From assembly GCA_947525975.1 (NCBI GenBank), contig CANNVE010000021.1:1-44912 (forward strand): a stretch of DNA of 44,912 nt, read 5' to 3'. The position numbers and the translations under genes are program-made. Of this stretch, positions 18,731-23,170 are shown in pieces. Position 1 is the stretch's first letter. Every line of letters begins with the position of its first letter. The notes beneath the pieces were generated by a model that made no database searches, was not told where the DNA came from, and worked only from the letters and a program-made list of their open reading frames with translations. This DNA is from an uncultured Muribaculaceae bacterium (GTDB lineage Bacteria; Bacteroidota; Bacteroidia; Bacteroidales; Muribaculaceae).

Positions 18731-18818
18731 GGAAAGATGCTCGAGTGGCTGAAGAGGCAGACCTGGAAAGTCTGTAACGGTCGAAAGCCGTTCGCGGGTT
18801 CGAATCCCGCTCTTTCCG
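18731..18818 (+). tRNA. tRNA-Ser(GGA)
   Basis: An 88-nt class II tRNA with acceptor arms GGAAAGA/TCTTTCC, a D arm, an anticodon stem CAGAC/GTCTG with loop CTGGAAA (anticodon GGA), a long variable arm (AACGGTCGAAAGCCGTT) and a T arm with GGGTTCGAATCCC. CCA is not encoded, as usual in Bacteroidetes. It reads UCC and UCU codons. Confidence 0.97.
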
Positions 18819-18823
18819 CAAAG

Positions 18824-18908: not shown

Positions 18909-18929
18909 GAATCCCGCTCTTTCCGCAAA
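18909..18929 (+). repeat. 21-bp duplicate of the tRNA-Ser 3' end
   Basis: The 21 bases 18802-18822 (end of the T arm, acceptor 3' strand and two bases past the gene) recur exactly at 18909-18929. Upstream of the copy, GGGTTCG is present at 18878-18884 but separated from AATCCCGC by about 26 nt containing a near-palindrome centred on AAGCGCTT. The remaining gap to 19044 is AT-rich with long T runs and no gene. Confidence 0.8.
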
Positions 18930-19044
18930 TAGCCCGGCATTGCAGGGCACACAGACACCTAAACCGCATGCTATCAGCAAGCATTGTGGTTTTTTCTTTT
19001 TTTTCCACGGCTCCGATTATCATATCGATCCCCCAATTTTTTTT

Positions 19045-19074
19045 TTGAGATTTTGACTATTTTGACTAACTTTG
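19045..19074 (+). promoter_or_regulatory. Promoter of the efflux operon
   Basis: TTG (19045-19047), a 19-bp spacer and TAACTTTG (19067-19074) leave a leader of about 210 nt before the tolC-like ATG at 19290. Confidence 0.65.
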
Positions 19075-19098
19075 CACCCGGAAAAGCGCATAAAGCGC

Positions 19099-19203
19099 AT
19101 GCTACAACAAATGAAAAATTCAAGCAGCAGATATTCGGGCCGTCCTGTCCATTACCTAATCAGCCGCCTCAGGTACGCTGACGTCATCATTCTGCTCATT
19201 TAG
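19099..19203 (+). CDS. Candidate leader peptide upstream of the efflux operon
   Basis: A 34-codon ORF (or 30 codons from the second in-frame ATG at 19111) lies wholly within the long leader. The peptide reads MKNSSSRYSGRPVHYLISRL and ends RYADVIILLI, with a hydrophobic C-terminal stretch immediately before the TAG. Position, size and the overlap of its last codons with an RNA helix arm suggest a ribosome-sensing leader peptide. Nothing in the sequence proves translation. Confidence 0.45.
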   Translation: MLQQMKNSSSRYSGRPVHYLISRLRYADVIILLI

Positions 19204-19246
19204 GCCTTTAGGTCACATCGGACCGTACCTCCGGGAGGTTGGGCGG
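19164..19246 (+). promoter_or_regulatory. Attenuator-like RNA structure with two mutually exclusive helices
   Basis: AGGTACG at 19171-19177, inside the leader peptide codons, can pair with CGTACCT at 19224-19230, reinforced by CCGCC (19164-19168) with GGCGG (19242-19246). Alternatively ACCTC (19227-19231) forms a local hairpin with GAGGT (19235-19239). Both use 19227-19230, so only one can form. A ribosome on the end of the leader peptide would block the first helix. The regulatory effect is inferred. Confidence 0.4.
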
Positions 19247-19289
19247 TGCCTGAAATCCACACCTTAATCATCAACTTACATCCAATCTT

Positions 19290-20600
19290 ATGTCCAAGAA
19301 TCATTTTCTTGCGACGTTGATGCTGTGTGCTTGCGCATGCGGACTCAACGCCCGCGAGGCTGCGCTTGACGCTGACTCCGTGCTGCGGAGGGTGGCGTCT
19401 GTCAACGCTGACGTAAAAGCCGCACGCAGCGACTACGAAGCTGCAGTGCAGGGGATTGCGGTGGCGAAGAGCGCCAAATTACCCACACTCTCAGCCTCAC
19501 TCAACCTCAACTATTTAGGCGATGGCACTGTGCTCGACCGAGACTTTTCAGGAGCCATGCGCGACAAGCTGCCTCACTTCGGAAACACGCTCGAGGTCAA
19601 CCTCTACCAGCCCATCTACCACGGAGGCGCCATCACTGCCGGGATAGAAATGGCCCAAATCAAGGCCGACATGGCCAAAATAGGCATCGACAGGCAGGCT
19701 GAGGCATCTGGCATCGACGCCCTGGCCAGATATTTCAGCCTGATGAAGATGCACAACCTAAAGAAGGTGTACGCCGAGAACATCTCACTCACCCGCCGCC
19801 TCATCGAAAACATGGCCGAAAGGCACAGGCAGGGCACGGCGCTCAAAAACGATGTCACTCGCTACGAACTGCGCCTGTCGTCGCTGACGTATGACTCCCT
19901 GTCGATCGACAATTCCATCTCGGTGCTCAACCACGACCTTGCCTCGCTCTTGGGATACGAAGAGGGCACGGAAATCGTGACAGCCGACGAGGACTTCATC
20001 TTGCCCGAGAATATGCCCGAATCATGGTGGCAAGCCGCAGCGGCCGGCTCCTCGCCTGATCTCATGGCCATAGACAAGGCCCACACATTGGCCGGCGCGG
20101 CGCTAAAGCTTGAGAAAGCCGCCCGAAGGCCGTCGGTGGGCATAGTGATCGGCGACCAGCTGACGGGGCCCATCACCTTCGAGATTCCGGCGATCAACAA
20201 GAACTACAACGCTTGGTATGCGGGCGTGTCTGTGAAATACCAAATATCTTCGCTCTGGACGTCGGGCAAGAAAGAAAAGCAGAGGCGCCTCGAGATGGCC
20301 CACATACAGGATCAGCGCGATGCGTCGGCCCAGGCCATCAGCCGCGGAGTGCACCAGGCCTACACGGCGCTGACTCAGGCCAGGCAGATGCTTGAGACCG
20401 AGACAGCCAACGTCAGGCTCGCCAACGAAAACTACGACGTGGTGCAGACGCGATTTGACAACGACATGGCCCTGCTTACCGACATGCTCGACGCCTCCAC
20501 AGCCAAGCTCGACGCCGAGACACGCCTTGTCAACGCCCGAATCGACCTTATGCTCTCTTTCTACAAATTAAAATTCATATCCGGGACTCTCTACAGATAA
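19290..20600 (+). CDS. TolC-family outer-membrane efflux protein
   Basis: This 436-residue protein has a signal peptide (MSKNHFLATLMLCACACGLNA) and the TolC repeat of long helices: DADSVLRRVASVNADVKAARSDYEAAVQGI near the start and VRLANENYDVVQTRFDN near the end, with beta segments such as LEVNLYQPIYHGGAITAGI. It forms the outer-membrane exit duct of a tripartite pump. It is followed by the membrane-fusion gene after 30 bp. Length is normal for the family. Confidence 0.93.
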   Translation: MSKNHFLATLMLCACACGLNAREAALDADSVLRRVASVNADVKAARSDYEAAVQGIAVAKSAKLPTLSASLNLNYLGDGTVLDRDFSGAMRDKLPHFGNTLEVNLYQPIYHGGAITAGIEMAQIKADMAKIGIDRQAEASGIDALARYFSLMKMHNLKKVYAENISLTRRLIENMAERHRQGTALKNDVTRYELRLSSLTYDSLSIDNSISVLNHDLASLLGYEEGTEIVTADEDFILPENMPESWWQAAAAGSSPDLMAIDKAHTLAGAALKLEKAARRPSVGIVIGDQLTGPITFEIPAINKNYNAWYAGVSVKYQISSLWTSGKKEKQRRLEMAHIQDQRDASAQAISRGVHQAYTALTQARQMLETETANVRLANENYDVVQTRFDNDMALLTDMLDASTAKLDAETRLVNARIDLMLSFYKLKFISGTLYR

Positions 20601-20630: not shown

Positions 20631-21665
20631 ATGAAACAGAAAACACGCCGCCGCCTGCAGAACGCAGGCGTCATCACCCTGATATGCCTGTGCCTGGCAT
20701 GGGTGGCCACCCGATTCTGGGGCTTCACATCATCAGCCTACACCGACAATGCCCACACAGAGCGCCTCATAGTTCCGGTCAACAGCCGGGTGCAGGGATT
20801 TGTAACAGAGGTGAGATTTGACGATTTCAGCCGCGTAAAGAAAGGCGACACGCTCGTGATCATCGACGACGCCGAATACGCACTGAGGCTTGCGCAGGCG
20901 AAGGCCGACCTGCAGAGCGCATCATCAGGCAAAGACGCCCTGACCACGTCGACCTCAACCTCCCGCAATGACGTAGCCGTGAGCGAAGCGGCCATCGACG
21001 AGGCCAAGGCTCTTCTTGACAACGCCGCTCTCGACCTCAAGCGCTACGAAGGCCTCTTGCTAAAGGGCGCGGTCACACGTCAGCAATACGACGCCGTAAA
21101 GGCCAATCACGCCGCCTTGAGCGCCAAATATCTGTCTCTGACCCGCAGGAAGCAGTCATCGTCGATGGTGGTGGCCGAAAAGACAGTGAGGCTCGGACAG
21201 AATGACGCAGCCATAGAGATGGCCAAGGCAGCCCTGCGCCTTGCCGAGCTCAACCTGTCATACACAGTGATAACGGCACCGTGCGACGGCTACTGCGCCG
21301 ACAAGGCCATCAAACCCGGCCAGCTCGTGCAGCCAGGCCAGACGCTCGTAGACATTGTCGATGCCGATGACGTATGGGTCATAGCCAACTACCGCGAGAA
21401 GCAAACAGCCGGCATGCAGCCGGGAGACTCGGTCGAGGTCCGCGTCGACGCAATCCCCGGCAAAACCTACGCAGCCGTCATCTCGGAGATTTCTCCGGCC
21501 ACAGGAGCCGCATACGCCGGGGTCACACGCCAGCAGGCCATGGGCAATTTCGTGAAGGTGGAGCAGCGCATTCCCGTCAAGATAAGGTTCACCGGAGCCA
21601 ACTCCCCGGCTGACCTGAGCCTGCTGCGCGCCGGCATGAACGTAGAATGCAAAGTGATCGACTGA
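20631..21665 (+). CDS. HlyD/EmrA-type membrane-fusion protein
   Basis: This 344-residue periplasmic adaptor has a single N-terminal membrane helix (about residues 13-33) after a basic start MKQKTRRRLQ. The biotinyl-lipoyl half motifs follow (VNSRVQGFVTEVRFDDFSRV and KPGQLVQPGQTLVDIV), separated by a long coiled-coil hairpin (about 90-190), then a beta-barrel region. It links the MFS pump to the TolC-like duct. Its stop overlaps the MFS ATG (TGATG). Confidence 0.93.
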   Translation: MKQKTRRRLQNAGVITLICLCLAWVATRFWGFTSSAYTDNAHTERLIVPVNSRVQGFVTEVRFDDFSRVKKGDTLVIIDDAEYALRLAQAKADLQSASSGKDALTTSTSTSRNDVAVSEAAIDEAKALLDNAALDLKRYEGLLLKGAVTRQQYDAVKANHAALSAKYLSLTRRKQSSSMVVAEKTVRLGQNDAAIEMAKAALRLAELNLSYTVITAPCDGYCADKAIKPGQLVQPGQTLVDIVDADDVWVIANYREKQTAGMQPGDSVEVRVDAIPGKTYAAVISEISPATGAAYAGVTRQQAMGNFVKVEQRIPVKIRFTGANSPADLSLLRAGMNVECKVID

Positions 21666-23170
21666 TGGCCCACGACATGCCCCCGGTGAGGCTTCTCACC
21701 CAATTGCTCATGTTCAAGACATGGGTGCCCCGCCCCGTGAGATTCTGGACTCTGATGGTCTTCATCGTGCTATTCCAGTTCACGGGAGGCATCTATGTGT
21801 CTTCAATCTCGCAGATACAAGGCGAGCTGGCCTTCATCTCCGAAGATGTCACCATGGCCAGCTATTGCTCCCTGATTGGCCTCAACATGATATTCCCGAT
21901 GCTCTTCCGCTGGAAATTCTACTTCTTTACGCGCCAGATGTGGTTCGTGGCCAGCATCGGCAGCCTCGTCTGCGCCGTGGCTGCCTTCTACTGCCAGGCG
22001 GCATGGCTTTTGGGCGGTATTTGCCTGCTGGCCGGATATTTCAAGCTGATGGGCATGTTCGCCACGGTGTCGAATGTGCAGCTGTGCTGGACACCGACGC
22101 GCAGCTTCGGTGTGTTCCTTCCTATAATATTCATGTGCGTGCTCGGCACCCTGCAGCTTGCCAACATCACAGCCACTTGGCTTGCCTACTACGCCAATTG
22201 GAAGCTTATCTACTGCGTGGTGGTGGTCATGATGCTCGCCATCGACGCCGCCACCTACTTCATGATGAAGCCCGATCATCGCTGCGGCCCTTTCGTGCCT
22301 CTGAAAGGCGTGGACTGGACGAGCCAACTCCTTTGGGCAGGCATGTGCGTGGCAGGCGCCTACGTCTTCAACTACGGCGAGCACTATGAGTGGTGGGACA
22401 GCCCACGCATACAGGCCGCATCGGCCATCGCCGTGGCGCTGCTCATTCTGGCCATAGCCCGCATGCTGCGGCTCGGCGACAGGGCCTTCATCGCTCCCTC
22501 GGCTTTCTCGCATCCGGTCACATACTACCTCATAGCCCTGCTCATGGGAGTCAACATAGTGCTTGGCGCAGCCCACTACGCCCAGCCCATCTATGTCAAC
22601 GCCATCCTCGGATATGACTCCATCAACGCCATCGACCTCAACTGGCCCCAATTAGCCGGCATCATCATGGGAGCAATCTTCTCATTCTGGGCCATAGTGA
22701 AACTGCAGTGGAGCCTGCGCCGCTATTTCTTCTGCTGCGTGCTAATATTCCTGGCCTATGCCCTGACCATGTATTTCATAGCGGTACCGCAGACGCCAAA
22801 GCACTTCCTGGCCGTGCCCATTTTCATGCTTGGCTTCGCCGATGTCATGATCGAGACCGGAGCCACTTACACCCTGTCGCAGAAACTGCCATGGCCTGCT
22901 TTCTTCCCCAACATCACCATCATCGGATTCGCACGCTGCGGCCTGGGCACAGCCGCCGGAGCAGCCATCGTAGAGCGGACCTTCGCATCCCTGTCAAGAC
23001 AGTACGGGGCCGCAGATGCCGTGCGCGAGACGTTCGGCTTGAGCGCATGGGTGCTCACGGCCCTGCTCCTGCTCATACTCGCCTCCAACCTCAGTCCGGC
23101 GCCGCGACGCCTCCTGCCCCGCTGGGCCACCGTAGTCGGGCTGCTGCGCCACCAACAAAAGGCCGGCTGA
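21665..23170 (+). CDS. MFS efflux transporter, EmrB-like
   Basis: This 501-residue membrane protein has roughly 12-14 hydrophobic helices and starts MAHDMPPVRLLTQLL at the overlap with the adaptor stop. An ATG six codons upstream lies inside that gene and is disfavoured. Position after HlyD and TolC components indicates a proton-driven tripartite drug pump of the EmrAB-TolC type. Motif A of classical DHA2 members is not obvious, so it belongs to the divergent Bacteroidetes branch. The substrate is unknown. Confidence 0.88.
   Translation: MAHDMPPVRLLTQLLMFKTWVPRPVRFWTLMVFIVLFQFTGGIYVSSISQIQGELAFISEDVTMASYCSLIGLNMIFPMLFRWKFYFFTRQMWFVASIGSLVCAVAAFYCQAAWLLGGICLLAGYFKLMGMFATVSNVQLCWTPTRSFGVFLPIIFMCVLGTLQLANITATWLAYYANWKLIYCVVVVMMLAIDAATYFMMKPDHRCGPFVPLKGVDWTSQLLWAGMCVAGAYVFNYGEHYEWWDSPRIQAASAIAVALLILAIARMLRLGDRAFIAPSAFSHPVTYYLIALLMGVNIVLGAAHYAQPIYVNAILGYDSINAIDLNWPQLAGIIMGAIFSFWAIVKLQWSLRRYFFCCVLIFLAYALTMYFIAVPQTPKHFLAVPIFMLGFADVMIETGATYTLSQKLPWPAFFPNITIIGFARCGLGTAAGAAIVERTFASLSRQYGAADAVRETFGLSAWVLTALLLLILASNLSPAPRRLLPRWATVVGLLRHQQKAG

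Follow-up and report, generated by a model that had tools for sequence, protein, structure and literature searches.

A putative leader peptide before a TolC/EmrA-like/MFS pump operon of an uncultured Muribaculaceae bacterium, and its counterparts across the family

Introduction

The Mef(E)L leader peptide (MTASMRLR) precedes an operon encoding an MFS efflux pump (PMC4335068). In the ErmDL leader, telithromycin is described as stalling the ribosome at R-L-R, when Leu occupies the P site and Arg the A site, and a refolding of the RNA has been proposed (PMC8298421). Closer to the bacteria studied here, the transcriptome of B. thetaiotaomicron contains sORFs in long 5' UTRs that resemble leader peptides, and no pump leader is named in the portion of that report available to us (PMC7366714). 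Bacteroides is already known to control one resistance gene, tetQ, by attenuation, and leaders on pump operons appear to be new for the group, judging from the titles and opening lines of abstracts in the open-licence literature, among which we found none that describes such a peptide.

In the phylum to which the Muribaculaceae belong, translation initiates mostly without a Shine-Dalgarno sequence. Here we analyse a stretch of 44,912 nt (contig CANNVE010000021.1, hereafter the window) from the 2.9 Mb genome of an uncultured Muribaculaceae bacterium. A preliminary description of this DNA had proposed an efflux operon switched by a leader peptide and two mutually exclusive RNA helices. Our comparison of this locus with its relatives indicates that a cis-acting leader peptide probably makes expression of the TolC/EmrA-like/MFS operon depend on the state of the ribosome.

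Results

The pump operon and its neighbours

The operon lies on the forward strand, in the order promoter, small hairpin, leader ORF, 86-nt gap, TolC-family gene, EmrA/EmrK-like gene and MFS-type gene. The promoter element TAnnTTTG (TAACTTTG, 19067..19074), which we take to be of the Bacteroidetes type, is closely followed by a predicted hairpin, GCGC-ATAAA-GCGC (19086..19098). The first pump gene (19290..20600, ATG at 19290) encodes a TolC-family outer membrane protein with a PF02321 match and a TIGR01844 score under the curated cut-off. The adaptor gene (20631..21665) matches the EmrA/EmrK subfamily model TIGR00998 (E 1.7e-66) with 224.4 bits, not reaching the curated cut-off of 390.8, and the top PDB match of its profile is EmrA (8zar). 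The third gene encodes an MFS-type exporter: PF07690 is found in three aligned relatives and not in the window protein itself, and a PDB sequence search gave no match. It probably starts at 21668 (21668..23170) rather than at 21647, because in a relative of the same genus, G036, a stop interrupts the longer frame at its codon 5.

The earlier statement that no regulator gene adjoins the operon holds for the upstream side, where the neighbours are a tRNA-Ser gene (18731-18819) and a formate/nitrite transporter gene on the opposite strand. Downstream, a gene for a 974-aa propeller/AraC-type regulator converges with the operon. Rfam 15, at gathering score, has no match in the leader, and its sole match in the whole window is the tRNA, placed at 18731-18818. 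An exact 21-nt copy of the 3' end of this tRNA gene (18802-18822 and 18909-18929, 107 nt apart) may be a relic of integration at tRNA-Ser.

The leader ORF is conserved as a peptide

The preliminary description was also right in placing a 30-34 codon ORF ending RYADVIILLI before the pump. It spans 19111-19203 or, from an alternative in-frame start, 19099-19203 on the forward strand (stop 19201-19203), and the 86-nt gap runs from this stop to the TolC start. Its product is (MLQQ)MKNSSSRYSGRPVHYLISRLRYADVIILLI-stop, MLQQ being present only if translation starts at 19099. We prefer the 30-codon form starting at 19111, because the leaders of G036, G006 and G013, the last likewise from the window's genus, also have 30 codons. 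Residues 19-21 of this form are R-L-R (codons 19165..19173, forward strand), an [RK]x[RK] triplet, as in a leader of the mef(E) type.

In G036 a leader ORF, MVQSFTSPSSRPQHYLISRLRYADAIILLI-stop, lies before the TolC gene of that genome, with a tRNA-Ser and a similar transporter gene upstream as in the window. Over the last 17 leader codons the two sequences differ at 12 nucleotides and at a single amino acid; when 12 differences were placed at random, 0 of 20000 simulations gave one amino-acid change or fewer. On this comparison of sequences, the leader is under strong selection as a peptide. A short ORF conserved as a peptide between the promoter and the first gene is the arrangement of a leader-peptide operon.

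Searching the source genome and 60 relatives with the 34-aa leader gave matches in 11 of the 61 genomes at E <= 10; the clear ones were the window and G036 (E 4.1e-7), the rest having E 0.24 or worse. The 17-aa leader tail matched 4 of 397 family genomes, and two of these matches (G068 and G769) were set aside since they lie inside frames of 716 and 638 aa. The window-type leader was thus found in two members, the window and G036.

Related pump operons carry other leaders at the same place

Relatives of the operon were searched for with the window TolC alone, which found none, and with an MFS alignment, which gave 13 loci. MFS protein matches at E <= 1e-35 occur in at least 153 of the 397 family genomes. 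We fetched 80 regions and, after dropping six that had no TolC hit (L047, L050, L116, L132, L159 and L166) and adding the window, retained 75 operons with a TolC hit. By classes that were set by eye and with regular expressions after the sequences had been viewed, 61 of these 75 Muribaculaceae-type pump operons, window included, have a leader belonging to one of six C-terminal types: RLRYADxIILLI-stop (class A, the window and G036), RGRYFVQIIQPLA-stop (class B, two loci), ENWKST-like (class C, 45 loci), FWN[TV][LV]Q-stop (class D, five loci, with one further, FWNVLQ-stop, in L183), NK[IL]H...WG (class F, five loci) and CLWGVTQRHxA-stop (class G, two loci).

Leader class mostly tracks pump lineage. 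On a quick adaptor tree the class labels require 12 changes versus 28.4 in shuffles, none of 200 shuffles being as low. Classes A, B, D and G form one clade each, A and B are neighbours (support 80), and all 45 class C rows belong to a single clade of 48, in which the remaining three rows are cut upstream. Class F requires four changes, at least two of them forced by starred branches; its leaders (L120, L124, L133, L135 and L174) are scattered over the tree, and this class may therefore be ancestral or have been exchanged between lineages. Genome G676 contains two pump operons (L146 and L152) with identical adaptor sequences and the same leader peptide, either a recent duplication or an assembly artefact.

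The order of promoter, hairpin, uORF and pump is common to the window and its relatives, and at one and the same operon position the C-terminal motif differs between sister lineages and is conserved within them. The presence of different short peptides at one place suggests that ribosomes reading the leader help to switch the pump on. Selection on the peptide and its hydrophobic IILLI end would also suit a small protein that is itself functional and whose 5' position would have no regulatory role, but the other lineages have different and mostly polar C-termini at the same place and in the same layout, and we find this reading very improbable. A further alternative is that the leader senses a metabolite or an amino acid (tryptophan or indole, as TnaC) and not an antibiotic: a W is conserved in classes C, D, F and G, yet there is none in classes A and B, and the window leader belongs to class A. 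We judge it unlikely.

The ENWKST class shows selection on amino acids

A class C profile matched 102 of 297 family genomes at E <= 0.001, with 103 matches in all. At least 84 of these are followed, on the same strand and at a distance of 2349-2625 nt, by an MFS homologue among those listed. TolC follows the leader in 28 of the 29 class C loci that were read; of the 19 matches with no listed MFS partner eight were read, seven of them being followed by TolC and the other (L205) lying at a contig end. In an order-wide search 82 of 393 genomes matched at E <= 0.5, including G018, which is one of the source genomes of the profile, and G283, which on reading is a leader. Another match, in G227 (0.0012), was rejected after its locus had been read.

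Of the 45 class C loci, 43 have a TAnnTTTG element 87-112 nt ahead of the W codon, at 102 or 103 nt in 26 of the 43, and 29 of the 45 leaders have 23 codons before the W. Within ENWKST, Thr is encoded by all four of its codons (16/11/10/8) and Lys by both (23/22); codons vary at fixed residues, and therefore it is the amino acids that are selected in this class.

The hairpin after the promoter was compared in 36 class C sequences. From the 45 rows, four were omitted for odd promoter calls (L145, L164) or an unmatched loop (L134, L156), and the remaining 41 were reduced to 36 by removing duplicates: L142, L152 and L163 are identical to other rows, and L158 and L165 nearly so. The hairpin covaries: five of six pairs changed on both sides, which 146 of 500 shuffles also reach; the covariation score was 0.605 versus 0.281, with 0 of 500 shuffles as high. 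In 24 of the 36 sequences the outermost pair does not form.

Leader loci show no nearby regulator gene of the tested types

We looked for regulator genes by tblastn, up to 1.1 kb upstream, using four regulators as queries. All four were taken from leaderless loci, and a regulator of another family beside a leader would therefore escape this search. Among the leader loci, 57 had 800 nt or more of upstream sequence, and none of them matched these queries, versus 4 of 11 leaderless loci (L126, L127, L128 and L131; Fisher p 0.0004, the loci being related to one another). Three further loci that are leaderless among the 75 (L051, L168 and L172) are cut upstream and were excluded from the 11. The regulators beside leaderless operons are of AraC type (L126, L127, L131 and L170) or MarR type (L128). 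That of L170, detected by Pfam alone, is not among the four matches, nor is L042, where the tblastn match, at -1026, only touches a regulator gene at its edge. Six of the 11 leaderless operons, including L042, have neither a leader nor a regulator immediately upstream. In these sequences, leaders and nearby regulator genes of the tested types do not co-occur.

RNA pairing between leader tail and gap

According to the preliminary description, AGGTACG in the last leader codons (19171..19177, forward strand) pairs with CGTACCT in the gap (19224..19230), which would otherwise form a local hairpin, ACCTC-CGG-GAGGT (19227..19239, arms 19227-19231 and 19235-19239). The first helix does form when the free leader is folded to its predicted energy minimum. 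However, a perfect tail/gap helix of at least 7 bp is no more frequent than by chance (20 of 300 shuffles), and G036, which keeps the peptide, does not keep this helix. A different 8-bp pairing, ACGCCATC/GATGGCGT, connects leader tail and gap in G036, where tail/gap pairing is weaker than in the window (z -1.23).

Beyond any single helix, pairing of the 57-nt leader tail with the 86-nt gap reaches -32.9 kcal/mol in the window (shuffle mean -21.8), and 6 of 1000 dinucleotide shuffles are as strong. Elsewhere in the window, 0 of 150 places have z <= -3 (40 shuffles each). The gap folded alone is no better than chance (z -0.12). In these energy models, tail/gap pairing is supported in the window. 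Over the 45 class C loci, which are related and hence not independent, the folding of the gaps exceeds that of shuffles (mean z -1.34), tail/gap pairing lies slightly above chance (mean z -0.54), and RNAalifold on seven class C subsets found no gap helix common to all. In some of these subsets the leader can fold on itself, AACTGGGG with CTCCGGTT (codons NWG and those after WKST), enclosing the ENWKST codons. In the five class F loci the gaps show barely more structure than shuffled sequences (mean z -0.48), and therefore one helix switch cannot serve all classes.

The claim that ribosome position selects the helix fared differently at the two positions modelled. With a ribosome at the leader stop the ACCTC/GAGGT hairpin, both arms of which are present, forms; with a ribosome at RLR it does not. 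In G036 the pairing starts 13 nt past the start of the RLR Leu codon, so that a ribosome stalled at RLR would cover only part of it. The proposed helix switch is a possibility, and in these models it works better with the ribosome at the leader end than at RLR.

The same models bear on how the TolC gene might be controlled. The chances that the A and U of its AUG are unpaired are 0.50/0.47 in the free leader, 0.59/0.55 with the ribosome at RLR and 0.72/0.68 at the stop, the G being paired in all three. This partial opening in the stop-codon model (0.5 to 0.7), together with the leader ORF, the strong tail/gap pairing and RLR, would suit Erm-type translational attenuation, in which the TolC start is hidden in the free leader RNA and becomes accessible once a ribosome stalls. 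In Bacteroides, tetQ is given in a review as an example of translational attenuation (PMC5418344). On the other hand, the roughly 14 nt before TolC are mostly open in all three window models, and the pairing just inside TolC is the same in each. Masking of the TolC start, which changes little between energy models, gained no clear support, and Erm-type control is in our opinion improbable.

Transcription attenuation through an intrinsic terminator, as in mef(E)/mel, would agree with the order of the locus (an RLR leader and then an MFS operon) and, by eye, with a G+C-rich inverted repeat in G006 that is followed by 5 nt and then seven T. Yet a simple pattern scan found 0 terminator-like sites both in the window (18950-19400) and in L039 (3800-4250), and many class C gap hairpins, seen by eye and uncounted, have no T run directly after the stem. 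The scan gives no support to an intrinsic terminator between leader and TolC, and a mef(E)-like switch has little likelihood.

Discussion

If the leader acts in cis as we propose, a ribosome would pause at or near the conserved C-terminal leader residues when translation is affected, most likely by a compound that binds the tunnel or the PTC. The paused ribosome would open the duplex that the leader tail forms with the intercistronic RNA, and pump production would rise. For the output step, Rho-dependent or RNA-stability control seems likelier than TolC-start masking or an intrinsic terminator; by analogy, our guess would be Rho-dependent control as in topAI.

As to the inducer, we put a macrolide-like compound first for the window lineage and its sister (RLRY and RGRY), because ErmDL stalls at R-L-R and the mef(E) leader is MTASMRLR. 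The suggestion is tentative and rather doubtful, and we lowered our confidence in it slightly because the RLR-stalled model lacks the predicted hairpin. The RLR motif is a lead to such an inducer and not proof of it, as the triplet can be due to chance: 11 of the 45 class C leaders likewise contain an [RK]x[RK] triplet.

At the scale of the family, it is plausible, although we lean slightly against it, that Muribaculaceae have equipped one three-part pump family with at least six nascent-peptide sensors (the six motifs given above), which would replace AraC/MarR regulators, each new arrest peptide being tuned to a different gut compound. If true, the leader set of this dominant gut family would provide several candidate arrest peptides and would reveal the means by which gut Bacteroidales detect ribosome-targeting compounds.

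Among described systems, mef(E)/mel resembles the window in having a short peptide with RLR before an MFS-pump operon; it differs in belonging to a Gram-positive mobile element and in having a Rho-independent terminator (PMC4335068), whereas none was found in the window, where the pump has three parts. ErmDL shares the R-L-R arrest motif with the window leader, for which arrest is a candidate property; its motif is at residues 6-8 and it controls an rRNA methylase, in contrast to residues 19-21 and a pump in the window (PMC8298421). The tetQ attenuator of Bacteroides CTnDOT, as described in a review, is an attenuated resistance gene from the same bacterial order, but tetQ is a ribosome protection gene on a conjugative transposon, and the drug concerned is tetracycline (PMC5418344). 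In E. coli, the toiL-topAI uORF is reported to sense ribosome-targeting antibiotics, with Rho-dependent termination downstream; it controls a toxin-antitoxin target and not, as in the window, a pump operon (PMC12121999). As for the pump itself, the window operon shares with EmrAB-TolC an EmrA/EmrK-like adaptor, a TolC-family protein and an MFS-type protein, and differs from it in that the outer membrane gene comes first and scores lie under the curated cut-offs.
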